In this document: positions 18,868 through 48,359 of the stretch, piece by piece
How the letters are laid out: every line of letters begins with the position of its first letter
How positions within the stretch are numbered: the stretch's first letter is position 1
Assembly (NCBI GenBank): GCA_963971425.1
Contig: OZ020514.1
Coordinates: 41,143,158-41,207,157 of the forward strand
DNA from: Bryoerythrophyllum caledonicum
Taxonomy: Eukaryota; Streptophyta; Bryopsida; Pottiales; Pottiaceae
Direction: 5' to 3'
Length of the DNA: 64,000 nucleotides
Notes under the pieces: generated by a model
What the model saw: the letters and a program-made list of their open reading frames with translations, nothing else
What the model was told of the DNA's origin: nothing
The model's database searches: none
Program-made: the position numbers and the translations under genes

Positions 18868-19783
18868 TGGTCCCGGGTGTGTTTCTATGTCTCCGCCTAG
18901 AAGTATTAGAAGTTTTATGTGTTTAGGTTTGTGTTTTAGAATTCTTGTTTTTTGTGTGATGTTCTGGGGTTTTTTGATGTTCTTGAGGTTATGTTTGTTT
19001 GGAGGTATGTGTGTGTCTTTATTTGGGTGGTTTGTTTTGTTTGTAGTTGTGATTATGGTGCATGTATGAATAATTAATATGTAATGAGTTTTGGGTGTTT
19101 TTGTTTTTTTATTGGTGTGTGGGGTTGTATTTTCCCTTGTAATTATGGTGTTAATTTTATTTTTGTTGTATATTTTTTGTGTGGTTATTTGTTTAAGTGT
19201 GTGTCTACATATTTTTTTGTGTATTTTTTGTTTGTCTCTGTTCGTTTTTTTGATGATTTGTGTATATGTGTATGTGTGTTTGTGTTTAGGTATGCGTGTA
19301 TGTGCGCGTATGTTTTATTTTGTATTTTTGTGTATGTTTGTTTGTTGTTTTTTTTCTTATTTGTTTGTGTATTTATGTTTATATTTATTGGTGTATGTAT
19401 TTTAGTATTGTATATATGTGTGTATGTATGTGTGTATGTATGTGTATAAATTTATGTATTTGGTATTTGGTATTTGGTATGATGGTTGGTATAGTAGTTG
19501 GGGTGGTATTTGATATAGTACTCGTATTTTGTATAAAAGAAGTAGTCTTTAATACATGTTTGGTAGATGGTATAGTAGTTGGGTATTATGTAAGTGTACG
19601 CATAGTGTAAAATGTATTTAGTACTTGTATAATAGATCGTACAATGTATAGCTATAAAGTATGTTGGAGCTACTACGTATATAGTACTAGTGAGAATGAG
19701 GTATTTATCTAGGATAGAATACCATGTGTAAAGAGTAATGAGTATTAGATGGTAATTATGCATTACCTTGAGGTCTTCAGTCT
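18868..19783 (-). repeat. CA/TG-rich low-complexity spacer between LINE ORF1 and ORF2
   Basis: The plus strand is almost entirely T and G with TGTG and TGTATG runs (densest at 19230-19450), so the LINE sense strand is CA-rich. It lies exactly between the end of ORF1 and the first frame of ORF2. Long frames here reflect the biased composition and I do not call them genes. Confidence 0.7.
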
Positions 19784-21379
19784 TTACATGTTTGGCGGCC
19801 TAGCTTTGAGTCTAGGTGGCATTCTTCCCTTCATGGCTTGGAATGCAAGTCTCGTGGCATTCATGGCTTTCTCCATCTTGTCTAGATTTTCCATCAAAGA
19901 GTTGTGTAGGGTGTCGGTGTACTTCTTGCTTTCTTCTATCATTTTTTTGATGTTTTCCTCCAAGGCTTCCTTCAACTCTTTTTTGGTGATGGCGGTGGGG
20001 GCATCTTGTATTTTGAAGGTTGCAACAGTGTTGACCATGGCGGCATTGATGTCGTTGAACCCGAAGGCGTTGATTTGCTCCTCCGTGGGGGGTTGTGTGC
20101 CTTCTAAGCTCTTCCAATGTGGGGTGAAGTCCACATAATTGTCTCCAATGTCAAAGTGCTTCCTGACAAATTGCTTGTATACAATTGGGTTAGCACATTC
20201 CACGTTAGCTTTGCCATTATACCTACCACCAATTTCTTTATGGAACCATATGGACTTAACGTTATTAACTCCCATGATTTTTTCGATGGCATTAGTGACA
20301 TCTCGCACATTCATGAGAAGAGGTAAAGGAGAGAGGGTGAGAGATATGGCATCTTTCTTAGCTTTGGTTTCGAGAGTCATGCAACCACCGGTGTATGTCT
20401 TCCTTGCCTTGATGCCCTCGTGATGAATGGTGATGTGTTGAAGTTGTATCTTGGAGGCTTGTAGAGGAGTAGTGGCAGCAATGAAGGCATAGGGGTCTTC
20501 TTTCACCTTAGACACCTCCGTGATCTTATAATCTTGGCCTCTTGAAACTATTGATGAGGATGTCCTTGAAGAGTTGGTGGGAGGAGATACCTATCAATGT
20601 ATCGCTTCTCACTTGCACGGAAAGGTTAGAACGTTAGCAACTTGGGGGTAAGCTTTACATACTTTTCCAATTGTGTTTTGATTGTCTATGGAAAGAATGA
20701 AAGGCCTAATGCCTTTTAACATCATGAGAGCATCGGTTTCGGGGTTAAGGAGATGTAATTTGAACATTCCGGTCCATACACCCTTTTGCCCACTCCTCTT
20801 GACACTATGACAATGAATATAGATAGGATCCATATTACCATCTCATAGTTTAATGTCCATGATTTCAAGCATATGGATTATCATTTTATAAACATCATCA
20901 TGCAATAAAATGGAGGAAGGGGGTTCAAACTAGATAGCTACATGAAAGCCATTTGCAAAACCTGTGGAACCATTGACTTTGGTGTTGTGGGGAATCTGGG
21001 TGATGTTGTAGTGTTGTTCCTCGCTTCCTGGTCTTGCAATGGGGTAGTAGAGTTGGGGTATCCTTGGGTAAGCCACCTTTGATATCTTGAACTCCTTTGC
21101 CTCATGCTCCTGGAATCCTCTGGTCATCATATCTTCCACTTTGTCATCATAGAGGAGTTCTCCCACTCCTTCAATTGCGAGGCGTTCCATGTCTTCAAAA
21201 CCTAGCCAAAACTTGAGGAACATGGTTAGTGAGTTGAAGGGTGGGGATTGACTTACCTCTTCAAGGGTGCTTCTACTCTTCTTGGTGCTGCTTGTGTCCA
21301 TCTCCATGTTTTTTCTTGTTCTTTTCTCTTTCAAGTTTGGGGCATTGCTTGTCCCTTCACCATCTATATCCATAAGCAC
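19784..21379 (-). pseudogene. LINE ORF1, interrupted by in-frame stops
   Basis: Three open stretches (21379-20930, 20833-20609, 20515-19784) lie in the same frame and together would give about 530 residues. The breaks between them include KEAIH followed by two adjacent stops, positions at which CGA and CAG codons would restore sense by C-to-T reversal. The N-terminus is Lys- and Ser-rich. The middle contains a conserved-looking hydrophobic region (VWTGMFKLHLLNPE). The C-terminus (KELKEALEENIKKMIEESKK) is predicted coiled coil by heptad pattern. By position it is the nucleic-acid-binding ORF1 protein, though I did not recognise a standard gag-type zinc knuckle. Confidence 0.65.
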
Positions 21380-29420: not shown

Positions 29421-29847
29421 ATCTTGAGGGAAGAAGTTATTCTATATGTGTATCAGAAATTCCAATGTCAATAGACAGTTTTAGCACCACCTCTTGCGCT
29501 ATCGGAAGTCTCCATTTTCAATTTCAACGCTAGTAACTTTTAAATCGTGAATCCAAGAAAATTAATAATAACACCTTCGCAAAGTTCTTATCAGACGCAA
29601 TCTAATATATAATTTTCATAGGAAATTGTATTTTTTCCAAATAATAGGTATTTTGCATAAAATAAATAATGCCCCCCCAACGTTCGAATGGGCTCTTAGG
29701 GGTTAAGTTCCAAGCTTGAAACTAGGACATGAGCAATTAATATAAATATGCCCAATTCAATTATTTCTGGACTATGAGCTGAATTTCAGACAAATGACTA
29801 AAATAAAGATCCGGAGATATGCCAGATAAAAGAGAGTATAGTATAAA

Positions 29848-30850
29848 AGTCGAGGAGTTTAGAGTACTTTTCAAGCATGAAATGCATCACTACTGACATG
29901 TACGAAGGAAAAAATGGCTAGAGCAACCAAATTTGAGTTTAGACTATACGTGAGTCTACAACATGCAGTCGGATATCTCCGGGTGAATGTCAAAGTGTGC
30001 TTCAGAAGAAGAACTAAGTCCTCAAAACAAAAATTGTTGGACATACTGTACATCACAGGGGTGTCCATACATGAAATCACATGTGGTTGGGAAAATTGAG
30101 ACAAAGATGCCGACAACAATTACTGGCAATTCATGGGACATACAACAGGATATCTACGAAAGAATTCAGAGTAAGAGTTTAGTAGTTAATTGTTTCATTA
30201 TAAAAAAGTGTCATATAATAAATAAAGGGTGGCCGTTGCTAAGAGGCGCATGTAATCTACGGAGAATTGATTCAACTATCTAATTTAAGTGCTTTACAGA
30301 TGCCCTCTACCCGTCATGTATGGTGTCTCCCAAATGTTAGATAATGGACTATAGCCTTCATGGGATTCTTGAATGGATCTAGATCTGCAACAACAACACA
30401 TTTAGGCCACAAATAATGCCTTGTTTTAGCATTAAATGAGGCCTTTCTAATAGTGTGGAGAAACCTAACATCGCGAGGCCTTCGAGTCTACTTGCTGGCT
30501 TAGAGAAAAAGAATATCTGATAAGATGTCTGGGGGCAATAACACTTGGGCCGCCTCCATGAGCCTATCTGGACGCATAGGTGACCAACTCTTGACATTGA
30601 AATACCCCAGTAGTACTCAAATTACATTGCCGTGTCATCAAAAGAAGGCAGTTGCGCGGAGCTGGATTTGGCCGCATCAAGTACCTTGTCGAAGCAGAGA
30701 GGACCGCGGAGAGATATGATGATGACCTACGAATAGCAAGGCACGACCATTGAATTAGAAATTGAACATGAGAATGAAGAGAAAATAAGGTGTGAGGTGT
30801 TCAAGTGAAAGGAAATCGACCGGAGATCTCCGAGTGCCCCTCCCAGACCG
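29848..30850 (+). pseudogene. Possible plus-strand gene fragment at the left side of the palindrome island
   Basis: A TATA-like GTATAAAAGTCGAG at 29848 precedes ATG 29914 (MARATKFEFRLY). A GTGAGT donor follows that peptide, and a Cys-rich segment CASEEELSPQNKNCWTYCTS with QGCPYMKSHVVG comes next, then WDIQQDIYERIQ. A second coding-looking stretch lies near 30640-30730 (GAGFGRIKYLVEAERTAERY in one frame). The composition is GC-richer than the flanks. I do not recognise a family. It could be the first exons of a small Cys-rich protein or a remnant. It converges on the minus-strand gene that ends at 31082. Confidence 0.3.
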
Positions 30851-31081
30851 ACGTTCTGTAGTCGAAATGGTCATCAGAATACTCAATAGTGTTCAAGGAT
30901 ACTAAAGTGTGAAGTTTGGAGGCGAGACACTAACAATAACAAATCGAAGGAAGGACCTCAACAAATTAAGTTATTCACAACAACATTTATCTTCAAAACT
31001 GAAAGGTCAATATCCAACAGACATTTTTGAATTGACATTTACAAAGCATAGAATTTAAAATATCAAATATATTTCAATGTT

Positions 31082-31795
31082 TTAAGGCGCCAAAATTATG
31101 CCCGCCACCATGGCGAGGGCCGTAGGGGAAGATTTGTCTACTGCTCCAAAGCCAAACTTCGGAGGATTCCGTCTAACATAGTCGGGAACATCCTCATTTG
31201 ACGCTAGCAGTCCGGCAAGCCATGGGCGAAACGTGGAAGTCAAGAAGGTGTCATTCAAAAACCCAGTCCATGATGGCGGATGAACTACGCTGAAGGGATC
31301 GTTATGGACATTCTTTAGTGGGGTATTGTACACAAAGAAGTCATCCTTGGAAGACTTGGGCATCGCCTTGGTGTTATAAATTGTCAGGTCCTTCAGGAAA
31401 ATTGGCTTCTTTGAATGAGATGGGAGCACCAACAATGCTTTATAGCAATCGGCCTACATCAGGATTGTGACGTCTTCCGGAATGGCAGCACCTTTCCTGC
31501 GCAACTCCTTCATAATTTCTACAATATTTTTTTCCACCACACTGCTCCAGAATGAGACAGTAGCCTTCTCCCCGACAAAGTTAAGAAGCTCTATGCAACT
31601 AGGCCTTACTTTGACGTCCCTCAATTGTCCCTGTTTAAATTCCCCCCTGTGCACAAGAACTCCATTTAAGTCAAACACGACATGATAAACCCATTGTGTT
31701 GTTACTTGATCCTCGTTTCTAGGCTCCCGGACAATCCTAGTGAGCATCTTCACTTTTGAACCCAAAATACGAGTACGTAGGCTGAGATGAAGAAC
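31082..31795 (-). pseudogene. FCP1/NLI-interacting-factor-like HAD phosphatase domain
   Basis: The frame from 31765 contains VVFDLNGVLVHRGEF, the DxDxT/V-type nucleophile motif of FCP1/SCP phosphatases, but with Asn in place of the second Asp. Then come VRPSCIELLNFVGEKATVSF with WSS, the usual R-P..L..L...Y.V.IWTS region. Next is FLKDL, NTPLKNVHNDPFS (the DDSP-equivalent without its Asp pair) and PPSWTGFLND with FLTSTFRPWLAGL. The order and spacing fit the family. The altered acidic residues suggest that, even when whole, the domain may not have been a standard phosphatase. An in-frame stop separates two halves. The frame ends at TAA 31082-31084. Confidence 0.6.
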
Positions 31796-32818
31796 TTGTA
31801 CAGCTTAGAAAAACTGCAAATATATATACAAAAGTGTTCCGCACTGACAATCTTGAAATCCTCGGTGGAAGATTGAGCACTATATAGACGATGGCACGTA
31901 AATATGAAAGTACACACCAGGCACCTGGGACAGTAGGTGGAGTAACCCTAGAGGTCTGAGCTACACCAGCAACTTCTGTAGTCTATGTGGGGTTTTTGTC
32001 ACCGACATCCTTCGACTGTGTTGATCGGGCCAAAACCTGAATACCAATACTGACGTAGTCAGAATACGGTCTGCCTAGAGTGAACTGTCCTGAGAACAAG
32101 CAAGAAGGTTTGATTGACAAGTAATTGTTCACCTTATCTTTTGGGCCCTTGTCCAAATTGGAACCGGAGGAGGAGGTACTATCGACACATGATTCCTCGT
32201 GATTGCCTTCTTCTTCTCTTTGTCAGGCAGCTGCCCCTAGCGACACGGAGGGCTTGCACGGAGGGCTACGCAAAGGGCATTAACATGTAATTCACGCATT
32301 GTTTATGCACCAATACCTCATCCATCGTGTGATTGATGTCACGCATCGTCAGGTCCTCGGTACTCTTGATTACAACCTCCTGTTCAGGACGCGTCGTCAC
32401 AAGGACGTCCTGCGGGAGATCTCCGGCTGCAACATGGCCGTTGTTGAAGTGTAGGGGATCGGACATAGTCGTGTCATCGTGGAGATTTTGCGGTAAGAGA
32501 CGCTTCCCATCCGAATGCGAAATGGTTTCTTTAAGAGAAGGACTTAATCGAGCGTCCGGAGTAAAGTCGCTTGTCGAACTAGGCAAGTCACGACTGAATG
32601 GATGACGAGGTTCATCATTGTTTCACTCCATAGGGTCACTTGGGGTGCCCGAACCCAGGACCCGTGCGGCTGCGGCCAAGGACTCGAGTCTAATGTTGGG
32701 AACTGCTGATGGATTTGGTACATACAACACATCAACATCATGCATCGAGTCATCAGTCATCTACGTCACATTGATGAAGTCTGTGTAAAAAAAATGAAGA
32801 TGCAATACAAAACAAAAC

Positions 32819-32983
32819 GGCATCATACACCCGGAGATCTCCAGTTCAACGTGGTCCATGTTTGCTGGGCGAACTCAATTTGAACATTGCAATGAATGAG
32901 ATGAGTCTTGAAGTATCGAGGGCATTCGGAGCGTATGATCAGCCAGAGATCTCCGGCTCATGAAGTTGCCGTAGGCATCATAC
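32819..32983 (-). repeat. 145-bp insert between 10-bp direct repeats inside an intron
   Basis: GGCATCATAC occurs exactly at 32819-32828 and 32974-32983. Between the copies are 145 bp with a palindrome near each end (32831-32844 and 32943-32956). The right-hand repeat copy, read on the minus strand as GTATGATGCC, contains the donor GT of the intron that runs to the TTTACACAG acceptor at 32781. Removing one repeat plus the insert would leave an intron of about 48 bp with the same donor. This looks like a small insertion with target-site duplication that took over the splice donor position. Confidence 0.55.
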
Positions 32984-33303
32984 CTCCTTGGTGAAGTTCA
33001 TCCTGGACATTGCTCGTGTTTGAATTCCAGCGCTTGGGATCGACTCAATGATGTCAGTCTCCTCTGCGTCCTCGACAACGCCGTCTTTAGCGTCGAGTAA
33101 GATATTCAAGTGGTACTTAAATATCTCTTCTGCGCAAGATTCGACCTTTATTTTGGCATCTTCACTATTCACAATCTCGAGGACCCGTGCGTCGTGAGCC
33201 TGCAAAGATGAAACTTCAGTAATGGCGTCCTCTGAAACATATAACTGTATACGGACACAAAAATCTTTGACAAAGGATTGCTTGGAAAGGATGTCCTACT
33301 TAC

Positions 33304-34680
33304 CAAGCCAAGATATGTTAAATGTTGTCCTCCATTAACATTTACGACCACCTTACCCTTTGTGTAGAACCCCTTGAACTGCAAATTGAGGACCGAGATC
33401 CTCACTTGCGGAACACCGGGGCTCTACCAGCGTTTGATGGATTCGGCATGATCAGCGGCTGAAATGAAGGTCGACATTTTCTCGGGGTGGCCTTTGAAGA
33501 GCCTCTTGAATGACTGAGCATGCATCTCGCTTGCATCATATTCATACAGGAATACACAGTATACTGTCTCCCTGACACCAATATCTGGGGTCGGAAACCC
33601 ATGAGCTGGGTGGGAAAAGTAGTAGACCACATGCGTTGCTCACAATTTCACCTTGCTCCTGGACTCCCTCTGCCGAAGTATGAGGTGCCTCTTTAATTCC
33701 ACGAATCCTGCTTCGTCGGTGATAAGATTCGACAGTGATCCAACACTCGTCCGGACGTCCTTTGTGTCCACTTCGAGATGGTTGAAAATTTTCTTGAACT
33801 CAAAGAGATCGAGGACCTCAGCACGACATCTCTAGTCTTTCACGCGATAGAAGAAATAGAAGTTAAAGTGGGGGTCTTTAACATTACGCCACTCCTGAAT
33901 GTCCGGCATAATAAGTACTTGGGCGACCTCCCTCCCATTGTCAAGCAGAATCGTACAGGTGTATTTGGAGTCGGACATGGACGTGTCATTGTTGAGGGTG
34001 GCTTTGGCATTCGCATCTGGAATGTGTTGATTCCAAATAGACACAAGGATGTCTGGGGTGGCGTCGGTCTCCTTGTTAATCGCCTTCAGTCGGCCCTCAA
34101 GCCAAGCTTTACCCTTGGCTGAGTGATTCGCGGCATCCACCCATGACTCAAGCTAGGCCCGTCCAATATTTTTCTCTTCTGCAAATTCTTCCCACTGCTC
34201 CTTTGGGTATGGGACAAAGACATCAGACTTCAAGGGAAGGAGGTGATTTTTGTATTTCAACATGAGTTCATTCTTTATTGTTTGGATTCTCTTCTCCCGA
34301 TTGGCAACATTTTCAAGAGTCTCGGCCTGCCCTTTCATGGTACCTTGGTTCGCTGCTTGGGATGACTTCACATAGACCTTCTTCGCGAGCACCAAGTCCG
34401 CAATGTAGTCTAGGTCCTCAGTGCACATTTTATAAAGTGGCTTGAAGTTGTTTTGCACCAGAGGTTTCCACGTCAGTTTAGTTGGGTCGCCCGTCTTCCC
34501 GTTCGAGTCCAGTAGGAGAGCAGCGACGTACATCTCGTTGATTCGGATCCATTTCCGGACCACCACGTCATCCATCTCCAATAGAAGAGGGACCTTTGCA
34601 TCTTTAGGGTCCATTGGACCGAGGTGCGTGAATATCGTTGGCACTACATCTCGTTGGAACGCCCGCAATCAGAAATAATT
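33304..34680 (-). pseudogene. Large central exon of the ParB-like gene, unknown domain
   Basis: About 450 codons follow one frame, with parts such as WIRINEMYVAALLLDSNGKT, TWKPLVQNNFKPLYKMCTED, YPKEQWEEFAEEKNI, WLEGRLKAINKETDATPDIL and VYYFSHPAHGFPTPDIGV. The composition is that of a soluble globular protein. I do not recognise the fold. It ends at a good donor (TTG|GTAAGT, 33304/33303). A few stops interrupt it. Confidence 0.45.
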
Positions 34681-34785
34681 CACTAAGTGACCGGCCGGAG
34701 ATCTCCGGTTCAATGATTTGGTTACTGTCAAGAAAGAGCACATTGATGGAATTTAAATCTGTTAAGGTTGAGAATGTAATCTTAC

Positions 34786-36111
34786 TGAGAATGCCTCAAA
34801 TTGTGGACGACCATGCAGTTGGGGGGCAGGTTTTCCGAACTCAAAGCACTTCACTCTACACCTTTGTAGCTGCTCTGTGAAACTCTGCTCCTTCCGTAGA
34901 CCCGTCAGATCTTAGTTGAGAGCGCGCGAGAGTTATAGGAGGGTCATATCTTCAGGATCAGGTTTTGTCCAAACCGGGATGATAGAAAAGTGGGAGATCT
35001 CTTCGAGCGTCCAAATAGATGGCAATTCGTGTGACAAAATCCTGTGTGCCTCCACAGTATGCTGACCACCAATTATATAAAAGTGCGTTAAGTCCCTCAC
35101 GCAATCTTCCTTTGTCGCCTTGGTCTTGAAGAACTCCACCTTACTTCCTTCAGGTTTTTTCTTCAGCTGCAGGACTCGAATGTGAATCTCTTGTGTCGTT
35201 GCCTTCGAGGATGCGCAAACTGCATTGATGATGCCTTCAAGCCGTTCTTTCTGGATGCCCCTGTATACTAATCCTCCAGGGGGGCCCTATGCAGGTTATT
35301 GAAATGAACAAGCTTGAGGACATCCTTCTTTGTGATAGGATCTTCTACTGCCAACGGCTTATTCTTGTGTATGTAAACATTTTGGAACGCGTCATCGAGA
35401 ACCTTGCCAATAGCTTCCACTTTAGCTTGCTTCATTTTGGTGAGGTCAGCCTATGTGAAGTTCAGGCACTTTTCGATTATGAGGCCTGGCTCATTGGCCT
35501 TTGCTTTCTTCCCCTTCTCCGCTCGTGACGAGGAACCTGGGGTCAAAGTCTTTAAGGTGGTCTTGCGTTTTCTTCCCGGGGTCGATGCTCGTGTCAAAGA
35601 CAGTATGGGAGTAGGGTCCGGAATGGGCTTTCGGGAATTTCCTTGTGCTTCTGGCATCCACTTCTACTGCTCCATAATGTACTCCGGCATCTTAGTATCA
35701 CCCGTGGGAGGGGGGAATAGAAAATTCTCATTCTAGCAGGTCTCCATCAACACTTCCTATATCTTAGATGTGTCTAAGATCAAGCCGTATATGAGAGCAT
35801 TGGTGGAAGAGTTCGTGTTCTCCTGGATAACAAGGAGATAGACCTCGTCATCAAGACCCTGCATCTGTAGAATGTAGAGACCAATGTCGAGGTGTCCTCG
35901 TCTACCAAGCCTAAGCTCAAGGACGAATTCCTAGGCTCCTTCAGGGGTTTTAATTAGCTTGATGCCCCACTCGATCATGGTCCAACGACATCTGTATACG
36001 TAGCCGACATTGTATATCCCTCTATAGACGATTTCAAGGAGCCAAAACTCTACAAACGCCCCACATTTCCCGGGACAACTTTCCGTCAGAAGTGTGGTTG
36101 ACCATGAATCC
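34786..36111 (-). pseudogene. Exon with ParB/sulfiredoxin-like region
   Basis: Near 35085-35040 the translation reads FYIIGGQHTVEAHRIL, preceded by VYRGIQKERLEGIINAV and followed by DPEDMTLL and LSRALN. This matches the ParB/Srx fold pattern: a helix over the input residue, the G-x-H-R..A box, then an acidic ALELALIENLQR-like helix. Upstream is a basic linker (TPGRKRKTTLKTLT, about 35560) and a hydrophobic N-terminal region (FVEFWLLEIVYRGIYNVGYV, about 36050). No ParB helix-turn-helix was seen. The assignment rests on motif recall and needs a profile search. The reading frame contains several stops. Confidence 0.45.
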
Positions 36112-36547
36112 CTGCAAGATGGTTTTGAAACAACACATCGATAGTTAGTAATCATTGAAATTATCCGGTCATCTATGTAGTGTCCAGAGATCTCCGGCTA
36201 TATTTCCAGAGGTGGAATACATGGAACGAGCTTCCACTTCCATGACACAGTGCCAGCAGCAGGAGATCTTGGTCCTATTTGTGAATCTTCAAAAACTCGT
36301 GTAGCTAATGATCTCTAATTGCTTGAAGTATGTGGCTCGGGCTACAGCTGAAAATCTCTGGTTCGGCAGCCAAGTTCTGACGTCAACACTAAGCAGTATT
36401 GCAACTTACTTGAAACGTCCGGAGATCATCGGAGGCCTCAACATCAAGTTCTTTATTACAAAATTCAGGAAGAATCATCATACCATCAAGAAAAAATTCA
36501 TTACCGTCTTTAGTATACTTGGACAAATGATTCAATGAAACGCAGAA

Positions 36548-38335
36548 CTGTGACGATTCTACATGGACTATTCTTTTCACACATTCACAGTGGACCGGAC
36601 TTGAAGGACTGAGTAAAAAGAAATTCATTCGAACCTTCAAGGGAAAACTAAAATCAAACGCCTCTACATGGATAGATATATAGTAATGTTTACAACACAA
36701 AAGAAAACCAATCGACTACAGAGAAACACACTTTTGTATTCTAGTACAATATTTTTGAGGTTTCTCATATTCATACAAGTGTTCGACATTGTCTTACACC
36801 TGGTCGGTAACAAAAGAACCAATTCTAAGCTGACAAAATACCAGAAACCCCACACGATCGCATAGAATGTGCATAAACAGTTGTGAATGGATGACGTACT
36901 GGTTACCCTACCACGAAGTCCCACTCGACGTCCTTGCCAAAGTAACCATTTCTCCACCGCCTCTAGCAACTGCTCTACAACAACGCACAAGCGGCTCTGC
37001 AATACATCAAAATTCCACAACTCAGCATTACAATTTCAATAGTTACTCAGACGCCCTAGAATTTGAGCTCCAAATCCGGTTGACATGAATTACTCAGAAT
37101 AAATCACAGCATAGCATAAAATGCTCATATACAACCCTTATGAACTGAATATAGAGAACACCAAAACCCTATCCCCGTTAAAATACAAATCCAATCAAAC
37201 TACTTACAACATCAATACTATTCGAGTCTATCGAACCGTAACTAAGCCCACCAAACCCTAGGCCCTCTCTAGTGGCTTTTCTAAGCAATCCGGAGCAAAT
37301 GCAAAGTCCGGTGACACGTAACCCTACAATTCTGTTTATCATTCACGTTACTTACCTCCTCACTTGCCGATACGCCGCACCCCTACGTTGTGTCCGTTTG
37401 TGCCGACGCCACCCTCAACTGTAGCGTTGTTCCCTCTCTTCTAGTGAACCAACCGCGCTCTTCCAAATTCTTCCAAGTTCAAACGCTCTCTTCTTGTCGT
37501 GCACTCTGACATATAGACGTTCTCCATCAAACACCCCGACCGCTCCACTCACGACAGCCGCTAGCGCTTCTTTGAACTCTCTCTCAACTCACGACAATAA
37601 TCTCTTGACGGTACGCTCAATTGCCGACACTTAAAACAACCCTCACCGCTCACACTGACAGCTTCTCTCACCGCATACAGCCCAACCTCAAAGCCTCATC
37701 GCCGATTCCGCAAACCGCGCAAAAAGAACCATTCCCGCCACTTCCGATCACTAGCTACGATAGTACGAAGACACAAACCCACAAAAAAAAAGGGATAATG
37801 CTCATGAGTTTTTCTAACCTGAAGTGGACAAGTTGGACTGCTCAAGGGCGTGACGGCTCATGATGACAGAGGGTGAAGCCACAATCAGCTAAAATCACGT
37901 ACATATACAACGTGTACATTTCACAATCATGACATTGTCAATGTCGTCAGCATGCGTGACAAGACGTATTGATACCCGACTTCAACGATATTACAAATGA
38001 CTAGAGTAGATACTGGGGTTCATCGGGTATTAAATTAATCACTATATTTGAATTTAATACAACATAAGTGAAAAAACCATTCTAACACAAATTAAATGAC
38101 ATAAGTGATCATTTAATTATGTCATCACTATCATTTGTAATTCTATTCTCTGTAGAATATTATTCATTATATTTTTCATCCATCTCTCACATATCTATTT
38201 ATGAAGTCGTCCATCTTATTCAAACACAATAGACATATTCAACACGGATTCTCATTTTATGCCATATAATTTACCATATACTTTAATGGATTCTCCGTGA
38301 CAACCTCATCCTTTTTATACATCATCCATGAACCA
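36548..38335 (-). other. Upstream region of the ParB-like gene, GC-richer than surroundings
   Basis: No convincing further exon was fixed. A minus-strand GTAAGTAAC donor-like site near 37360 follows a GC-rich stretch, and a 5' untranslated exon there is possible. From about 37.9 kb the sequence becomes AT-rich with a local palindrome at 38086-38125 (ATTAAATGACATAAGTGATC and the reverse). Frames such as 36664-37020 are probably not coding. Confidence 0.35.
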
Positions 38336-38339
38336 AAGA

Positions 38340-39190
38340 TCTCCTATTAAAATTGATCCCTCACTCTCCCTCTCTTACTCTCCCTCTCTCCCTTACTCTC
38401 CTTCTCTTACTCTCCTCTCTCCCTTATTCTCCCTCTTCCTTACTCTCCCTCTTATGTTCTCTCCCTCTCTTTCTTACTCTCCCTCTTCCTTACTCTTCCT
38501 CACCATCTTTTTTTTATTTTTGATATATTTTTTTCTAGATTACCTCTAATTTCAATAATTACACATTCTAAAAATATAAACTACTCTAAAATAAAATCCT
38601 TCACTATCCCTCTCTTACTCTCCCTATCCCTTACTCTCCCTCTTTATTACTCTCCCTCTCCCATACTCTCCCTCTTCCTTACTCTCCCTCTCTTCCTTAC
38701 TTTCCTTCTCCATCTCTTTTCTAATTTTGATATTATATTTAGATTGCCCCTAATTTCAATAATTACACATTCTAAAAATAATTAACTACTCTAAAAAAAA
38801 TCCCGCACACTCCCTCTCTTTCTTACTCTCCCTCTCTATCTTTTTTTTATTTTTAATATAATTTTTTTGACATAGACTGCCCCTGATTTCAATTATTATA
38901 CATTCTAAAAATATAAACTACTCTAAAAATAAATCCCTCACTCTCCCTCTCTTATTCTCCCTCTCTACCTTACTCTCCCTCACCCTTACTCTCCCTCCCT
39001 TATTCTCCCTCCCTTACTCTCCCTCTCACTTGTTTTTATTTTATTTTTATATTTTACTCTCCTCTCCTCCTACCTCTCTATCTCATATTTAATTTTGATT
39101 TTAAAATTTTTAGATTGCCCCTAACTTTATTAACAGTGTACTCTAAAAATAAATCCCTTGCCCTCCCTCTCTTCCTTATTCTCCCTCTAA
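38340..39190 (+). repeat. Pyrimidine-rich satellite (CTCTCCCT blocks with AT-rich linkers)
   Basis: Blocks of TTACTCTCCCTCT alternate with a linker containing GATTGCCCCTAATTTCAATA, ATTACACATTCTAAAAATA and AACTACTCTAAAA. The linker recurs near 38550, 38755, 38890 and, degraded, 39115, so units vary from about 135 to 230 bp. The composition is almost free of G on the plus strand in the C/T blocks. Confidence 0.85.
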
Positions 39191-39358
39191 CTAATTATAA
39201 TGTATGAAGTTTTAAATAGTTATTGTACAATTCTAGCTAAATTTCCTTCTACTCTATTGTATCAAGTTTATTGTTACAGTTATGGTTATCGATAAATTTA
39301 AGGTTATAGTTCATAGTTATTAAAGAAATTTAATTTATAGATTAATAGGTGATATAAG

Positions 39359-39565
39359 CCCTGGACCTTCAACTGTGAACCATGAATCCTAAACCCTAAA
39401 CCTTCAACTATGAACCCTGAACCTTCAACTGTGAACCATGAATCCTAAACCCTGAACCTTCAACCGTGAATCTTGAACCTTGAACCCTGAACCAAAAACC
39501 CTAAATTCTAAACCCTGAACTAAAAATCCTAAATTCTAAACCCTGAACCGGAAACCCTGTATCGT
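39359..39565 (+). repeat. Degenerate interstitial telomere-like repeats, left part
   Basis: Repeats of the form AACCCTAAACC, GAACCCTGAACC and TTCAACTGTGAACC derive from the plant telomere unit CCCTAAA with many changes. The array is cut at CGT|CACTA by the transposon and resumes at 46228. Confidence 0.85.
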
Positions 39566-39594
39566 CACTACAAGAAAACCAACCCAATGTGACT
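39566..39594 (+). repeat. CACTA left terminal inverted repeat
   Basis: 29 bp matching the right end at 28 of 29 positions (A versus G at the 17th base). It begins CACTACAAGAAAACC and ends AATGTGACT. Confidence 0.95.
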
Positions 39595-40098
39595 GGATGT
39601 GACTAAGCGCATATGACTGCGTAGTCACCTCAGTCATTGGTTTAGTCTAAAATCAGTCCTAAGAGGGTCCAGTCATGCACTAGTCATATATGTAGTCATA
39701 TTTTAGAGGACCTGGGTGGGAACGGCTACGGGAACGGGACATATGTTCTCCTGCCCGGTTCCCAGAGTCATGCTCTGAGTGCTTACTATGTGTAGTCATA
39801 GTAATGTAGTCATATGGTAAGGGTAATTGGTTTATGTATGACTTATTGTAGTAAGAGAGTTGGTTTGGGTGACTACACGCAGCCATGTAGTAAATAACCT
39901 GACTAGTAGTAGTCATATATGTCAATCAGATGATTTTGAAGTCCTCTACTCGTTGGCTCAATAGGTGAGTGCTGTGAAATTGGAGTTGGTCCATAATCTC
40001 CACTTACATAATAACTTCCCTGTACAACACTACTATGTTTGCGCGCCAACATTCTAGGATGTCATTTAAGGGCACCATTCTAGAAACACTTTTAAATA

Positions 40099-40682
40099 CA
40101 CCTTCAAAAATTAGTAACTAATGTGCAAGAGAGTCCAAAAATCATGATTCCACTTGCTCTATCTTCCTACTTGCTCTATCTTCCCACTTGCTTTCCAGAT
40201 GCACGAAATTGCCTTGTAGGCTTAACTTTCAGACAGATTTCCAAAAAAGCCGTTATTGATCACATTCCCATATTTTTTTGAGACGTCAAAGTGACTGCAA
40301 AATAATGTAGTCATGTGGACGGTTTTCTTTACTACAATTAGTAATGAATACAAAATCCGATAGTCATCTAGACAGTTTCTGTTACGTATATTAGTAATGA
40401 ATTGCATGTTAGCAAAACCTATGAATACAACTTCAAACGATTACTGACTACTTGCAAAAGAGTCTAAAACTCATGATTAGCACTTGCTCTACCTTTCCAC
40501 TTACTTTCTAGATGCACGAAAACGCCTTCACTTTGCTTTAGATTTCCCATGCTGACACATTGGGCTATAGTTGATCACATTCCCATATTTTTTTGAGACG
40601 TCAAAGTGACTGCAAAATAATACAGTCATGTGAACAGTTCTCTTTACTACAATTAGTAATAAATGCAAAATCACATAGTCAC
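40099..40682 (+). repeat. Direct duplication inside the CACTA element
   Basis: The segment about 40099-40366 is repeated at about 40424-40682. The best-conserved core (TTGATCACATTCCCATATTT and the following GAGACGTCAAAGTGACTGCA) lies at 40257 and 40571. The copies contain the GTGACT and AGTCATGTG words of the subterminal arrays, so duplication adds presumed binding sites. Confidence 0.8.
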
Positions 40683-42415
40683 TGCTGAAATTCTAAGAAG
40701 GCAAGTGCACCTTGTTGTATAATCTTCTCTCCCATACAACCAACCCTTTGAACCCTACAGGCAATCCTGATAGTGTAGTCTCAACACTACAAGAATGGCA
40801 TCACACTACCTTAATAAAAATAGAATCACACTTGAATCTACCATGCAGGTTGATATGCTCTGTGACTGCCTCCAGTCACAGGCACCAAAGAGCTAACTAT
40901 TGAACACGTTACGTGTTCAAGGATTCTCACTCCTTACCGTCACATGAACCAAAATCATGACTAACCTTGGTCAACAGAAAGCATTGGATTGAGTGTTTTA
41001 GTGCACAGTCCTATTGAATTTCTAAGAGTACGCGTTTATAAATGATCACCTCGTCCAGACTGAAAACAACACTCATGTTTCCAAGCTCTTTAGGTGTTGT
41101 TCCAGTTATGTCAGGTATCAACCAACTCCCTACAATGCCCAGCAAAGAGAAATTTACATCAGAAGCAAAAATCTCAAATGCTAACATTCAAAATCTTGCA
41201 AGAGGAAGCTTCTCTACAGCACTGGAGCTGAAATTCTATTCTAAAGGGTACCTCTCATTGAGAATGATGTTATGTTAATCAAAAGCTTCCTTCAAGTTGT
41301 GATTGGCCAAAAAGTCTGCCTTTGCAATCCGCCTTTGCCTCTAGAAATGGATACCGTCACCTGCAGCCTTGGTGTAAAACAACAACATCAAGTAAGCCCT
41401 TAAGGACCTGGGACTCATTCAAAACTCACAAATCTATCACATTCTAAACCATAACGGATCAAGGAAACCGTACAAGCAATCCACGTACAGGCGTTTTAGC
41501 GTAGTGGTGCTACTCTCTATCAAACTCGCATTAACCCCTAAAGTCGAAAGCCCTCAAAACTGCCAAAAACCCTCAAAACTGCCCTCTTTCAATGCAAGGT
41601 GAAAATTTTTAACTTTTGACAAATTTTCGAGTATGAAACCGTAAGTTCTAGTACCTAACTTGTACATGTACATGCATACTGAATCTTAGATTCAAATTCC
41701 TCTCCATTTGTGAGATCGTAATGTTCAAAGTTGAAAAAAAAGATTTTTTCCTTGTTGTAGAATGGAAAACTAATGTTTTGGGGGCCAAAAAAACCAATTT
41801 TGAAAGGAAATTTGACATGAGGCTCTTCAAATTCTTGTTCCTATGTGAGTAAGGAATATGTCCATATAATTTTAACCCTCATAGGACCTATAAAACCTAA
41901 AGAAATGCTTAATTTTTCACATGGAGGTATGCTGAAATACAAATACAAATGCCCATTTTCAACAATTAAAAAGGCATGCAAAATTATCGGATTGAAAATC
42001 CAAACGGTGAGATCATGCTTTACTACCTCTTTTACATGTACAAAAAACAAAATTCGAAAAAGAGTAAAATCTCAATTTTTGGTGAATTCTTGAAGTTACT
42101 GCGATCTAATTGATTTTGGGCAGATTTTGAGAATAAATGAGCATATACCGCAGTTTTGGGCAGATTTCAGCATGCCCTAACAGTGTTTTCAAACTTTGAC
42201 CGTGAATATCTCCTAAAGTATGAGGAATTTTGAAGCATGAATGGTGTCATTTTAAAGGTATGGGAAAACTCTACAACCTTCTGGTCGATTTCGACTTTAG
42301 GGGTTAAGTTTTCGAATTGACGGTGGCGGCGGAATCTTACCTCAGTTTATCAAAATGGCGATTGCAAGGGCGAACGCACAGCTCCCACGCATCACTGCTG
42401 CTACTGCCTCGAGCG

Positions 42416-45400
42416 ATGGCGACGCCCACGAACACCGCTCAAGCGCCTTCGGCGACTGACGGCGACACCTCCTCTGGCGAGCAGGTTACCCACGCATCTG
42501 AAGGCTCCGAACGGGAGGAAGGGATTACGAGAGACGAGGAGGCCAAAGTGCCTGAGTATGAGAGGCTGCGGCAGGAGAACTTGCGCAAGAACTCCCTCAA
42601 GCTACGCGAGGTCGGAGTCCCGCTATTGGCAGCATCTTTGAGAGAGTCGAGAACCACCGAAGCGGGGGGAGGAGAGGGGAAGACCGAGACGAAGAGCACT
42701 CGCAGCGCCGGCGCCAGCAGCCTCGAAAACTGCCCCGGGTACGAAACCCTAAACCATAACTCTGTCCATTGAATGCACTCGCCGTTGACGATTGGATAGC
42801 GTACCTCCCCCCTCGCAATCGCGTACAAAACCCTACAGCCATCCGGCCTGCAGCCATTCTAGGTGCTTCGCAATCGCGGTCCTCCTAACCTCCGCAATTT
42901 GTTCTGACTTCTTGATTGCTTGAATTGCAGCGACGGTGGGGAACTGGTGCGTCGGAGTTCGCGACTTAAACAACCACCACCAAAAGCTAGAAGGTCACGC
43001 AAGCGGGGGAAGAAGCAGAAAGACGCGCTCTGCAAGGAATCAAAGGAAATCGTGAGAAGCGTGAAGAGCAGCTCCGACGAGTGGCACAGCGAAGAGGAGA
43101 AAACGGAGAGCACTGACATCGAGAATGATGACGAGCGTGGCAATGGCGATGATGAGGTCTCACTAGTAGGAGTGCAAAAGCCCCATCGAGGCAAGCAAAA
43201 ATCTCAGGTGAGTGTACTGACTGAGTATTGGGATTTTTTAACATGCTGATGGGTGCACAGTTTTCACTTGCAAACATCAAACTACCTAGATTTGTTGGAA
43301 TTTATGCTTCCATCAAAGTACCTTAAATCGGTGTTTGTTTGCCCTGCAACTCCAATCATCTTTCAAAGCTCTGTGACTGCTCATAGTCACATGAACGAGA
43401 TTTGTGACTACAAAACTAGTATGGAGCCCAACAAATCTATACCCTGTAGGTTTCCTTTGCTTCTTGCTTTGTTCCAGGACTGCTTCTCGCTCATCATGTT
43501 TACCCAGAACCTAGTGCTACCTGCTGCTAGCATGCACATTCTCTCATGTACAAAGCTGCCACCCCCGCGCCTTGTTTTACTATACATTACTGATGTGTTG
43601 GAAATTATATTCTTCTTTTGAGGAGATGCTATTTTTTGTTAGTTCTCTAGTTTTGCATGTTACAAAATGGCAGTTTTCAATCTTCAACATCTCGCAAATG
43701 GTGAAGATCACCAACTGGTGTGTGTTTAATGATAGAGAATGCTCAATCTCAAATAGCATGAGATCGATAAATATCATGGGATCGATGCATTTGGGGGTAG
43801 TATGAGTAAGTTTAACATCACGAGAGAGTGCTAATGTAGAGGATACGTGGCTCATATTCTGTAGCTTGAAACTGTTGCAACATTTGCTTGAAACTGTAGC
43901 TCATCTTCTGTTTCCTTGCTTGAAACTGCAATACCGATGCAACAAAGAAACTGAATTCATAGTAGGTGTTTGAATTTATGGCATGGATTTCTACACTTCA
44001 CAAAAGGCAGATGACGTTCAGGAAAGTATCCTGGCACTATAGGTACGAATAGCATTTTGATGTGTGTTGTGCCTTGGTTCTTGCAACATTCAATGTGCCT
44101 AGGATTTTGTGACTGTTTGTAGTCATTGATATGGAACAAGTGACCAGGCTTTACTAGATGCAGTCATGAATCTGGAATACGTGATCAATATTAGTAATGA
44201 AGTTAGAATATGTGACTTCTCACAGTCACTAGTTTTGAATAAATTACTATTCATAGTCATAGAATTTGAATAAGTGACTAGAATGGTAAACAAGGTGTGG
44301 CATTGTTAAACGAAATCACGAACATTGCTCATGATTGAAAGCAATGACTGAGAGGATCCCTATTGACGTGTTGCCTCTGTACTTAATAGGGATTGCAGGA
44401 AGCAGGGGAGTGCGAATTGCAGCCTATAGATCCGGATAAGGCAGTGGAGATTCCTGCAGTAGGTGATGTGAACGACTCACAGACAACGGGAACTTTGAAC
44501 AACCCTGCAGGAGGCACTCCAGATTGTGGTGCAGTGACCGTGGCAAAGGCAGGAGGACGTGCCGCAGTTGTGTACTCAACTCGAAATTTGAGGGCTTCTA
44601 AGCCTGCAAAGGAGGACACTCGCACCCAGAAGAAAATGCGTTTGACAGAGGTTGAGAAGCTGAAGATAGACCACGATGACACAAAGAAGCAAAGGGCAGT
44701 TCGGGGGAGCAAAGAGAAAGCTAAAAAGAGCAAGGAAGGCAACATTGAGAATCAGCAGAACGCGAAAGGGAAGAGGAAGAGAAACATGAACGCACAGGGG
44801 AGTGAATATGTATGTGTAGTCAACCTTGTATTTTCACATTTTTATTTCTGAAAGCACCAATTCAGTCCCAGCTGATCCTTGTTTTGTGTATTTTTTTACT
44901 TTTATAGGTTGTATAAGAAACCTCCGACCCCGAGTTGAAGAAGGGTGACCCAAGTTTGTGACTGTTTTTAGTCATTCATATGGAACGAGTGACCATGCTT
45001 GACTAGAGACAGTCATGAAGTTGGAATATGTGATTGAGATTAGTAATGACGTTAGAATACGTGACTTCTCATAGTCATTGAATTTAAATAAGTGCCATGA
45101 GCCTTGGAGAAGTACATCTTTGTATCAAGGCAGCAATTCAGTCCCAACTAATCCTTGTATTGTGTGTATTTTTTTTTAATATAGGCTGTACAAGAAGGGG
45201 AGGACCTGGAGTTCAAGAAGGGTGACCCTGTGAGACTAAAGGGACTTGAAAAAGGGGAGGAGGATAAAGTTGTGGCATTCGGGAAAGTGCAGAATGTAGC
45301 TGGGGCTTCTCTACACAGGAAAATCATAATTGCAGGTACAGTGTCTGTAGAAGTGCTAAAAAGCCTAGATGACGACTACAGTTTATTTGCTCCCGTAGAT

Positions 45401-45505
45401 CTAGATGATCCTCTTGTGACCTTGGCAGGACAAGCAGTAGGGCACTTTGTACTGTGGCCCACAGAGTTCATGGACATTGATCTGTCCTTCTTCCAAGCAG
45501 TTTAG
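42416..45505 (+). CDS. CACTA-borne accessory protein, four exons, intact
   Basis: Exons 42416-42738, 42931-43207, 44399-44809 and 45185-45505 join in frame to 443 codons plus stop. All introns have GT-AG ends (GTACGA, GTGAGT and GTATGT donors; TTGCAG, TTGCAG and ATATAG acceptors). Residues about 40-75 contain PEYERLRQENLRKNSLKLRE, the plant YExxRxxRIxEN-type motif seen in transposon-associated proteins. The middle is basic and nuclear-looking (RRSSRLKQ, KARRSRKRGKK, VYSTRNLRAS, KGKRKRN). The last exon (VRLKGLEKGEEDKVVAFGKV to HFVLWPTEFMDIDLSF) resembles the C-terminal domain I know as DUF8039, which accompanies plant transposase-related proteins. By analogy with TNPA it may bind the subterminal repeats. 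That is inference. The first ATG in frame was chosen. Confidence 0.8.
44854..45229 (+). repeat. 276-bp tandem duplication spanning the exon 4 acceptor
   Basis: CAATTCAGTCCCAGCTGATC, then the T-rich tract, ATAGG acceptor and GTTGTATAAGAA at 44857-44956, is repeated from 45130 with CAGTACAAG-type changes (GCTGTACAAGAAGGGG). The upstream copy of the exon start has a stop as its third codon, so only the downstream acceptor at 45184/45185 gives an open exon. The intervening DNA (44955-45090) is in turn a copy of 44105-44250. Confidence 0.75.
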
Positions 45506-46198
45506 GTTGATCCCCTTCCAGTTGGAGTGCATCTTATTTGAACCCAAATTTTCTGTTTCAATGAAATGTTTGAAAATCACTTGCATGACCTGACGCAGTG
45601 CTCACAACCGCACGTTTGACTTGTAATAGTCAGCAGATCTCATTATCACCCTAATCTGAAACTGAAATCTATGACTACACACAGTAAGAATGGCAGATTC
45701 GACTCCATGGCATATCTTTGCATTAGACTACGGACAGTCAAGTTCTAGTCAGATGCTTCCGATTTAATATTGAAATTTCTCTCCCAATAGTGAATGAAAC
45801 TAGTATACTATGACTCCATGCAGTCATCAGGTTATATGAGTGACTATGTGTAGTGAAGCATATTTGACTTTACAACGTCGTATTAGCTCACTTGAGTATG
45901 ATGCAATACAATCACAACCACATCACTATACCTCACTAGAAATAGTCATTCATTCAGTCACTATTTACATATGGATGACTACGTGCAGTCATACATATAT
46001 GACTATATAGAGTCATATGGACCCAAGTCCCATTGCAGGTCCCGTTTTGAGGTCCCAAAACACTGTGGGAACGCAGTATTGGGAACCAGAAGTGTCCGAT
46101 ATGACCCCCAGTCAGATTGTCCGAAGCGACTAAGTCAAAATGACTAGAAACAGTGCTAGTCACATTTTGGTTTATGCCCAACTGTAGTCATAAAACCT

Positions 46199-46227
46199 AG
46201 TCACATTGGGCTGGTTTTCTTGTAGTG
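46199..46227 (-). repeat. CACTA right terminal inverted repeat
   Basis: The reverse complement of the left end with one mismatch. The last bases on the plus strand are TTTTCTTGTAGTG, followed by the CGT target duplication. Confidence 0.95.
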
Positions 46228-46310
46228 CGTAAATCCTAAACCCTAAACCTAAATCGTGAACCGTGAACCCTAATATGTAAACCAAGAACCCTAAACCCTA
46301 AACCGTTCAC
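46228..46310 (+). repeat. Degenerate interstitial telomere-like repeats, right part
   Basis: It continues the array interrupted by the CACTA element: CGTAAATCCTAAACCC, then AAACCAAGAACCCTAAACCC. The two parts together are about 290 bp. Confidence 0.85.
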
Positions 46311-47540
46311 TATGATGCATAATCTAACATGAACACGAAAGCTGAACCCGAAGTCATAGTACTGGCTTGTTGTAGTTTCAAAAGCATCTACTCAGTAATT
46401 TGTGTACGTATCTTCTCAAGCATCCATATTACTACTGTCAAACTAAGGAATGTTGACGAATATTCTATATAGTGACGAATGCCGAAGTTCTACTTGTAAT
46501 GCCATATGAATATGATTAGTAGGCAGCAGAGGGCCGACTCTTTTCCTAGGGTAGGATATAATTTCATTCACGAAGGTGAACACCTGAAGTCCCACACAAT
46601 TACATTACACTCTATTATAGTCTAAGACGTGTTACGGCCCTAGTTTATACAAAAATACATCATGGGGCATACTTCATCTTCCGTTTCCCAATTACAAGCA
46701 CTCTCGGAACTAAATTGTTTCCTTACGATACGATCATCCCAAGAGTACGAGCCTTTCATTATCATGAGTGCAATGTGGCCTCGGTCGTGGGCACATCAAA
46801 GAATGCGCACTAACATGATGGTGTACATCAGTGAGTTTGAACGAGCATGCATGCCCGAGATCCATATCAAATTTGAGCGCCTGAATTTCCCCTCCATGAG
46901 GTGTTGGGAAGGATTGATAAGAGTATTTTACAACTCAACTCTCATCCTTTTTTGCTTTGAAGGTTTGATATACTGTAGGAGTTGAGCGCGTCAATGAGAG
47001 GGTTCGCAAGTTCGACTTCGTGCTAGTAAAGTGTAGGAAAACAATTTGACATTATTCCAAGAATGCTACGTATGTTTCCTTGTACGATTCCATATCCGTT
47101 GTCTTTTTGAAAGGATTGGTGAAGATTGTGTTTAATTCTAACCTTTAAGTCGATTGGCAGCTATTGTGTAGTGCTTTTGTAACTAAATAGTCTTTGGAGA
47201 TACTGTCATAGCCTGAAAGCCGATATTTTTTTTTACTCCGGAATTAAGATGATGAACTGCTTGGCATGTGCATACGTACTGTTGTCCTGCGTTTGCAAGT
47301 GCATCTCACTGCCTATTCCGCAAATATTCCGTAAGGCATGTGTTTTATTTAAGAGAACGAAAGCCAAATGGAGATCTCGGACTGTTTAAGCCGTGCAAGT
47401 ATGACTTCTCCCTAGCTTGTTTGCTTACCACGGTTGCTCCCCTAGAAACCTGTGGCTCTCATTTTGGTCCCACGCACAACAACCGGAGATGTTCGGCTAT
47501 TGTAGCGTGGAATATTCTACGAAAGTTGGCTCGACACCCT
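46311..47540. other. Mixed-composition region, possible coding remnants
   Basis: The frame at 46662-46985 is open for 107 codons (WPRSWAHQRMRTNMMVYISE) but has no motif I recognise, and it ends without a clear context. I treat it as a possible decayed exon. The rest shows nothing identifiable. Confidence 0.25.
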
Positions 47541-47550
47541 GGTTTAGATT

Positions 47551-48191
47551 GACCGAAGATCTCCGGTTGGATACGAGTGGAGCTTTAAGCTCCACCCAAC
47601 TCTGTCGGCGTCGAATAACAAGGCGTGGTTGTAGATCATTCTCCGATCAGCTGGAGATCTCCGGCTCGTCCAGCCTTTGAAATTGAGCTTGATAATCCAG
47701 TTCGTATCCACATACACTTATACTCCCATTGAGGGCATGTGCCACCAGACGAACATCCACCGATGCAGCACGGAAGTATGTCTCACTTTGAGCCGTGGGA
47801 GCATGACCCGGACGACCTTGCCATGGTCGCAGCTCAGTGCCCCAATTTTGAACATGTGAATTACTCGGAAGACGATGAACCATCCCAAGAGTCTACACGA
47901 CGTTCAAAGCTTCTACGGCCAGGAATGTCCGTGAACCTTGTGAGGCCGAATTCTAGCAAAAATAAAGAAGCATCCATTGTTGAGGTTCATCCAGTAGGAC
48001 AATGGCTTGGAGTCGACATACGAGTCGGTTCGAGGGAGTTTGTATTACTTAGACCGACGGCCATAATGTCCACGGCGGAAGAATAACCACTCATACCCTT
48101 CCAACGCGGGTACGATTTACTTAATCATACACTCCAACGAACTGTCTTGTGGAGAAGGGCAGATGTCATGATTCCATCCGGAGATCTTTGG
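47551..48191. promoter_or_regulatory. Second cluster of CCGGAGATCTCCGG palindromes
   Basis: Sites at 47553-47566 (CCGAAGATCTCCGG), 47651-47664 (CTGGAGATCTCCGG) and 48178-48191 (CCGGAGATCTTTGG). The first and last share a TTGACC / GGTCAA flank in opposite orientation and bracket the small frame at 47739-48086. The middle site shares its outer flanks with the one at 32943. Confidence 0.65.
47739..48086 (+). CDS. Small acidic protein with SH3-like C-terminal segment, hypothetical
   Basis: An open frame of 115 codons from ATG 47739. The first half is acidic and rich in Pro and His (HFEPWEHDPDDLAM, NYSEDDEPSQES). The second half, LLRPGMSVNLVRP to VEVHPVGQWLGVDIRVGSRE and FVLLRP, alternates glycines and beta-branched residues in the manner of an SH3-like barrel (KOW or Tudor type). 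The family is not recognised. It lies between two inverted palindrome sites. It may be the last exon of a longer decayed gene, because no good promoter is visible. Confidence 0.4.
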   Translation: MPPDEHPPMQHGSMSHFEPWEHDPDDLAMVAAQCPNFEHVNYSEDDEPSQESTRRSKLLRPGMSVNLVRPNSSKNKEASIVEVHPVGQWLGVDIRVGSREFVLLRPTAIMSTAEE

Positions 48192-48359
48192 TCAAACAAT
48201 TCCCCATTTGTACCATAAGAGCGTTGGAATGGACTTGAAGTGCAACGGTTGGATGGAAATGGGTTGTTGCTCTGCTCTTGGAGAATCATGGCTGCGATAC
48301 TAACGGATCATTTCTATAGTGGTTGGTTGGGAGAAGATAATAAGGCACACTTATTGTAA

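Follow-up and report, generated by a model that had tools for sequence, protein, structure and literature searches.

Palindromic sites conserved within a large plant DNA transposon are matched in sequence to the clade of an element-encoded gene

We report here on a 64,000-nucleotide stretch of the genome of the moss Bryoerythrophyllum caledonicum (contig OZ020514.1, positions 41,143,158 to 41,207,157; this whole stretch is the window below), in which palindromes of the sequence CCGGAGATCTCCGG recur in and around a gene at 31-36.5 kb. The palindromes are conserved sites within a large (~17-18 kb) plant DNA transposon that carries genes of its own. The sites are strongly conserved and placed in noncoding DNA, and their sequence is matched to the clade of an element-encoded gene, here named the GGQH gene. 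We consider it about an even chance (probability roughly 0.5) that they are self-recognition sites of a group of large DNA transposons, read by a protein that the elements themselves encode and whose role may be anti-silencing.

Scanning the window for CCGGAGATCTCCGG at up to 2 mismatches gave 12 sites; shuffled windows held 0.03 on average, and none of 100 shuffles attained 12. The first-pass annotation had counted thirteen near-perfect copies, one of which, at 29811, exceeds 2 mismatches against the 14-mer. As it had stated, the sites are confined to 29969-36432 and 47483-48191, the rest of the window being empty at this threshold. Its two blocks are indeed two site-bearing stretches, but they are not separate, both being halves of one element at 29748-48342. 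Just one of the 12 sites, at 34695, is exact, because the window copy of the element is decayed; arrays of exact CCGGAGATCTCCGG were found in better-kept copies elsewhere in the genome. Across the 437-Mb genome the exact 14-mer occurs 2718 times, compared with 3 for the reversed control, and the first 50 sites listed form four clusters on C1, the contig containing the window.

The element was compared with two other copies, A (C1:1561628-1579396) and B (C1:3739139-3756013), which are 87-94% identical to each other over their main stretches. By blastn, the window copy is about 77-82% identical to them over main stretches, from 29748 to 48342. Copies A and B end in 26-bp imperfect inverted repeats starting ATGC and have 4-bp target duplications, TAGG and ACAA, respectively; together with the DUF7869 protein that they encode, these inverted ends and target duplications identify the element as a DUF7869 DNA transposon. 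The end motif AACTATTTCTGGACTNTG occurs 185 + 178 times genome-wide (control 0). Letters common to the flanks of the window sites at 32943 and 47651 had been read earlier as a sign of common descent. Their copy A counterparts differ in flanks (acat...gtcg and tctg...ctat), so the common letters look like chance and the reading of these sites as duplicates is unsupported. At the right end of copy A (C1:1579354-1579381), a perfect 28-bp hairpin, ATTTCTGGACTTTGCAAAGTCCAGAAAT, adjoins the terminal repeat; in copy B it has 1 mismatch, and no such hairpin is present at the left end.

On its plus strand, copy A encodes a DUF7869 transposase-like gene (PF25273, E 2.8e-46, Pfam). Its minus strand carries a NIF/FCP1-type phosphatase exon (PF03031, E 4.1e-13, Pfam) and the multi-exon GGQH gene, which encodes the sequence IIGGQHTV and is divergently oriented from the transposase-like gene. 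Gene models were built from open frames, the codon-phase of changes and splice signals. DUF7869 proteins are abundant in the genome, with 3611 first-look candidates, and many of the 150 scored have intact frames of ~1075 amino acids; the term DUF7869 had no occurrence in the open-access papers searched. The window copy is split by a tandem-repeat stretch plus a nested CACTA element with ends CACTACAAGAAAACC and a 3-bp duplication, CGT. Within this nested element (39566-46227), AGTCA/TGACT repeats number 66 against 14.4 expected and are densest towards both ends. The alignment brought together A, B and two further copies, C (from C15) and D (from C12). The element and its genes in the window are as follows.

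29748 to 48342, plus strand: decayed transposon copy, left end kept, right ~4.9 kb gone, CACTA insert inside (blastn against copies A and B)
29748 to 29773, plus strand: left terminal inverted repeat ATGCCCAATTCAATTATTTCTGGACT (copy alignment)
30279 to 30720, minus strand: conserved left segment, probable further exon (copy alignment)
31085 to 31740, minus strand: NIF/FCP1-type phosphatase exon (PF03031 in copy A, mapped onto the window)
32094 to 32756, minus strand: GGQH exon 4, low complexity (copy alignment)
32992 to 33198, minus strand: GGQH exon 3 (copy alignment)
33304 to 34661, minus strand: GGQH exon 2, with 4 stops (copy alignment)
34787 to 36110, minus strand: GGQH exon 1, the IIGGQHTV region, broken by stops and a frameshift (copy alignment)
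39566 to 46227, plus strand: nested CACTA element with AGTCA-rich ends, splitting the transposon (end and repeat analysis)
47778 to 48340, plus strand: first exon of the DUF7869 transposase-like gene, truncated upstream of the DUF7869 domain (copy alignment; PF25273 in copy A)

The sites, to which no strand is assigned, are given next with mismatches to CCGGAGATCTCCGG or changes relative to copy A; they come from the motif scan and copy alignment unless another source is named.

29969 to 29982: end-proximal site of the variant class CCGGATATCTCCGG, 1 change from copy A (alignment to copy A)
30146 to 30159: end-proximal site, decayed, 3 changes from copy A (alignment to copy A)
30820 to 30833: palindrome site, 1 mismatch
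32413 to 32426: palindrome site CGGGAGATCTCCGG, 1 mismatch, identical in copies A-D, in a low-complexity coding part
32831 to 32844: palindrome site in an intron, 1 mismatch
32943 to 32956: palindrome site in an intron, 1 mismatch
34695 to 34708: exact palindrome site in the intron between GGQH exons 1 and 2
36184 to 36197: palindrome site 5' of the GGQH gene, 1 mismatch (motif scan)
36419 to 36432: palindrome site 5' of the GGQH gene, 2 mismatches (motif scan)
47368 to 47381: decayed site 5' of the transposase gene, 4 changes from copy A (alignment to copy A)
47483 to 47496: palindrome site 5' of the transposase gene, 2 mismatches
47553 to 47566: palindrome site 5' of the transposase gene, 1 mismatch (motif scan)
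47651 to 47664: palindrome site 5' of the transposase gene, 1 mismatch
48178 to 48191: palindrome site inside a coding exon of the transposase gene, 2 mismatches

Between copies, the sites are far better conserved than the DNA around them. Noncoding sites are identical at 278/280 positions in the comparison of C with A, 289/294 with B and 270/293 with D. The corresponding identities of other noncoding DNA, leaving out the tandem middle of the element, are 74.9% (of 4844 bases), 75.1% and 84.3%, and those of coding DNA are 88.9%, 88.3% and 92.1%. Between C and A, CpG dinucleotides are retained at 38/40 places in sites compared with 90/168 in other noncoding DNA. The decayed window copy, in which 11 of the 20 sites of copy A are alignable, differs from A at 16/154 site positions and at 1901/9667 others. 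Placement is uneven: 18 of the 19 exact sites of copy C are noncoding (P 3e-4, or 9e-7 without the tandem middle). The stretch just 5' of the GGQH gene (6601-7064) contains six of them and that just 5' of the transposase gene (13050-13345) another four; four more are intronic (3081, 3193, 4951, 14850), and the last four are 3' of genes. The conserved variant CCGGATATCTCCGG, found 364 + 299 times genome-wide (control 0), stands close to the element ends, with two per end in copies B and C.

Gene and site also change together. A back-translated IGGQHT pattern occurs at 181 places genome-wide, and three of these with unusual codons were examined as 3-kb slices. The GGQH homologue at L056 (52% identity) has retained CCGGAGATCTCCGG. 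A distant homologue at L054 (24% identity, E 5e-37) has no CCGGAGATCTCCGG-type site within 3 mismatches; a different palindrome, CGTAGGATCCTACG, is present there in eight exact copies, placed 5' of the gene and within the equivalent intron. Arrays were counted 5' of the genes of F0 (copy C), F1 (L054), L056 and six further genes (0.8-0.9 kb 5' slices), L055 and L052 standing outside this count. GATC-rich arrays lie in 9/9 of these stretches, and in 9/10 when L055 is included as a GGQH gene whose 5' side was examined. GATC occurs 10, 14, 29, 19, 9, 30, 17, 21 and 14 times per stretch against 2.8-3.4 expected, and the commonest 9-mers reach 6-15 copies where shuffles attain 2-4. Three stretches of other DUF7869 elements, which are largely coding, show no arrays (2-6 GATC against 4.5-4.9 expected, top 9-mer 2).

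The site of the window clade, F0, is CCGGA-GATC-TCCGG, and that of F1 is CGTAG-GATC-CTACG. The others are GATC-TTAC-GATC (F2), GATC-GGTA-GATC (F3, alongside a second motif, GGAATATATTCC), CCGGAG-GATC-CTCCGG (F4) and GATC-CATC-GATC (F5); the codes of F7 and F8 are similar to each other and the least clear, GATC-GGG. At L058 (F3, C4:17909187-17910087), three near-copies of the palindrome GGAATATATTCC were seen, perhaps a second recognition site.

We searched for homologues with L054 and used the best 150 of at least 151 matches, with identities from 100% down to 39%; gene classes here are identity classes, not a tree. Among the matches listed, 41/46 F2, 67/100 F3, 27/50 F1 and 22/58 F4 sites lie within 3 kb of a listed GGQH gene, a distance that takes in 0.8% of C1 (F2 counts are exact sites only, from a search permitting one mismatch). 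All 41 matched F2 sites stand 0.7-1.8 kb upstream of genes in the 47-54% identity class. Conversely, 71 of the 150 genes have at least one listed site no more than 3 kb away, and in 70 of them the sites are of one class only (F3 29, F2 28, F1 8, F4 5; one gene has F1 + F2). The remaining 79/150 are uninformative, as the counts cover F1-F4 sites and genes among the matches listed. The earlier proposal that the palindrome goes with the 31-36.5 kb gene thus passed a genome-wide clustering check: the palindrome belongs to a plant element, the listed sites gather around homologues of that gene, and where the homologues are divergent the sites are too. By the measure of these sequence comparisons, the link between gene and site is real. 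IGGQHT places are over-represented on C1, the largest contig (75/181 against 27 expected, C1 being 14.9% of the genome); C1 is possibly repeat-rich or a sex chromosome.

In the mechanism that we favour, each clade would encode its own GGQH protein and retain, 5' of the gene for it, arrays of a GATC-containing site peculiar to that clade; the window clade has such sites in front of the transposase gene, within introns and close to the ends as well. An element-encoded protein, most likely the GGQH protein, would bind these sites across copies of its own clade. Binding would keep the promoters of same-clade copies active, most likely through a countering of DNA methylation by the host, the role that VANC plays for VANDAL transposons. 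We take the GGQH protein to be the probable binder, since its gene leads to the divergent sites and has an array in front of it. That the effect is anti-silencing, and not ordinary transcriptional control, we put at just under an even bet. We suggest, a shade more tentatively, that an undescribed protein family may read a modular address, made up of the GATC core and a clade-specific stretch of ~4-5 bp, with many clades in one genome each acting on their own copies only and escaping host silencing by an evolving recognition code. In 30 recent copies, C>T changes amount to 1.68% at CG, 1.77% at CHG and 0.49% at CHH, with A>G/T>C at 0.27%. Judged from the letters, this pattern is a footprint of CG and CHG methylation; silencing that could be opposed therefore exists.

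Several observations weigh against this reading. The GGQH protein has no recognised DNA-binding domain or family in Pfam, NCBIfam, PHROGs, PADLOC or PDB sequences; its exons gave rows at chance level only, the best being a lipoprotein model (E 0.037), with PF20281 (E 0.11) and PF11385 (E 0.21) among the others. The transposase shares the element, so co-divergence alone does not name the binder, and the transposase may yet be the binder because it was read in the window clade only. In the 30 recent copies, site decay is only modestly below that of other noncoding DNA (21/2520 compared with 492/35811). C>T changes at CG/CHG amount to 2.2%/2.4% within 100 bp of sites and 1.1%/1.8% beyond 700 bp; there is thus no dip near sites, and lasting local protection is not favoured in these copies. 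The matching of gene and site also has gaps. L055 (44% identity) has decayed sites only, three with 3 mismatches each, the L052 stretch shows no array, and the commonest F3 9-mer comes from GGAATATATTCC and not from a GATC site. No listed gene lies within 15 kb of 9/50 F1, 4/46 F2, 29/100 F3 and 20/58 F4 sites. The F1 14-mer has 337 matches against 28 for its control, and four F1 sites adjoin genes of the 47-54% identity class. For F0, where three gene places were used, 7/50 listed sites (C1:4302560-4306722), which adjoin a right end, have no matching gene place.

No relatives of the GGQH protein were found in IMG/VR, the prokaryote genome collection or phage records, nor any of the DUF7869 protein in IMG/VR. 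A methyltransferase fold for GGQH exons 2-3 was a by-eye resemblance only, unsupported by any search, and was set aside.

The alternative that survives best, though we hold it to be unlikely, is that the DUF7869 transposase itself binds the sites, for transposition and its regulation, like the subterminal motifs of other DNA transposons. It would explain why the variant CCGGATATCTCCGG is conserved near the ends and why four sites stand directly 5' of the transposase gene, but the exact sites are mostly interior, in introns and 5' of the GGQH gene. Moreover, the divergent sites were found via the GGQH gene, with GATC arrays ahead of it in nine of ten cases, and the three arrayless stretches of other DUF7869 elements point the same way, though they are largely coding.

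More doubtful still is the possibility that the transposon has acquired the sites as promoter or enhancer elements for transcription factors of the host. The presence of arrays in introns and 5' of both genes would suit such a role, yet clade-specific sites matched to gene clades, with 70 of 71 listed genes having one class, better fit an element-encoded reader, and flanks that vary around a shared GATC core suggest a single protein family that is evolving.

A bacterial parallel had been drawn in the first-pass annotation, which saw a ParB-like region in the 31-36.5 kb gene. That label was based on one short by-eye motif, IIGGQHTVxA, and we find it unsupported. Neither Pfam, NCBIfam nor PADLOC gave a ParB row for the GGQH protein at E up to 10, and PHROGs gave a single ParB-like row (E 0.33) in 1/4 GGQH family members. 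In hhalign, a four-sequence GGQH profile (Neff 2.1) scored a probability of 0.2% against F SopB and P1 ParB, similar to shuffled and unrelated controls; with so few sequences, a remote homology may still exist. Clustered palindromic sites near the gene were found, as in ParB-parS systems, and VirB, a ParB-parS relative, is described in the available text of one source as an anti-silencer (PMC10653881). The likeness extends to palindromic sites near the presumed binder's gene in both and, for VirB, to the anti-silencing proposed here. Here, by contrast, the carrier is a plant transposon integrated in chromosomes, significant ParB profile homology is lacking, and no ParA-like Pfam row was seen among 10 open reading frames of copy A; VirB, for its part, works without ParA. 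Nothing that we saw points to DNA segregation. It is accordingly improbable that the palindromes are loading sites for a ParB-type protein by which the element is segregated, paired or replicated, even given the palindrome length, the clustering near a gene, the resemblance of IIGGQHTVxA to a ParB-type box and the one PHROGs row. That the sites are functionless neutral repeats spread by tandem duplication, as tandem periods in some arrays might suggest (F2 28 bp, F3 126 bp between listed sites), is contradicted by 99% site identity against 75% in other noncoding DNA and by CpG retention, and is very improbable.

Of known systems, VANDAL/VANC is the closest to the self-recognition that we favour. 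VANDAL elements have a Mutator-type transposase with a target duplication of about 9 bp, whereas the present elements have DUF7869 and a 4-bp duplication. VANC proteins carry DUF1985/DUF287, of which the GGQH exons show no Pfam row at E up to 10, and the VANC motif is YAGTATTAY, in contrast to the GATC-containing, often palindromic sites described here. In the available text of the sources, VANC21 of Arabidopsis is anti-silencing and has its binding motifs in noncoding DNA, both in introns and in intergenic and terminal regions (PMC5735166, PMC10398659). According to the same text, VANC target arrays grow by tandem repetition and related families have different motifs (PMC5735166). On that account, four features are alike: a dedicated gene that the element encodes in addition to its transposase, a motif that recurs in introns, upstream and in terminal noncoding DNA, related proteins that go with different target motifs (here the matching of gene and site), and arrays that expand by tandem repetition (PMC5735166). 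Given no VANC domain match in Pfam, this is a likeness of working, not membership.

En/Spm encodes TnpA, a protein that goes with repeated subterminal motifs and is linked to demethylation. The present element likewise combines an element-encoded protein with repeated motifs; its sites, however, are spread across the whole element, and it has ATGC ends and a 4-bp duplication where CACTA elements have CACTA ends and a 3-bp duplication. Fungal DNA transposons encode TET/JBP dioxygenases, thought to aid escape from methylation-based silencing, and are thus alike in carrying a cargo gene with such a presumed role; that gene encodes an enzyme acting on methylcytosine, and the available text describes no clade-specific site system (PMC12730594). 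We found no prior description of the element, the sites or such a system in the open-access literature, subscription papers and preprints being outside the scope.

Two further observations concern the window and the assembly. Positions 12001-20000 form a long stretch that is G+T-rich on the plus strand, with GC skew up to 0.55 and AT skew down to -0.40. The gene rbcL is present on three contigs (L047, L048 and L049); the two that were compared, L047 and L049, differ from each other, and their best match among PDB sequences is to land plants. These differences suggest that plastid DNA of more than one plant is in the assembly.

Detailed knowledge of transposon-encoded self-recognition in plants comes from one group, VANDAL/VANC. 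The genome analysed here appears to hold at least 5 or 6 site codes with a GATC core, each tied to its own GGQH clade. Such a series would be useful for studying changes in DNA specificity, the avoidance of cross-talk between transposons and the ways in which they might escape methylation while sparing the host. GGQH proteins may also be regarded as candidate sequence-specific proteins for epigenome editing.

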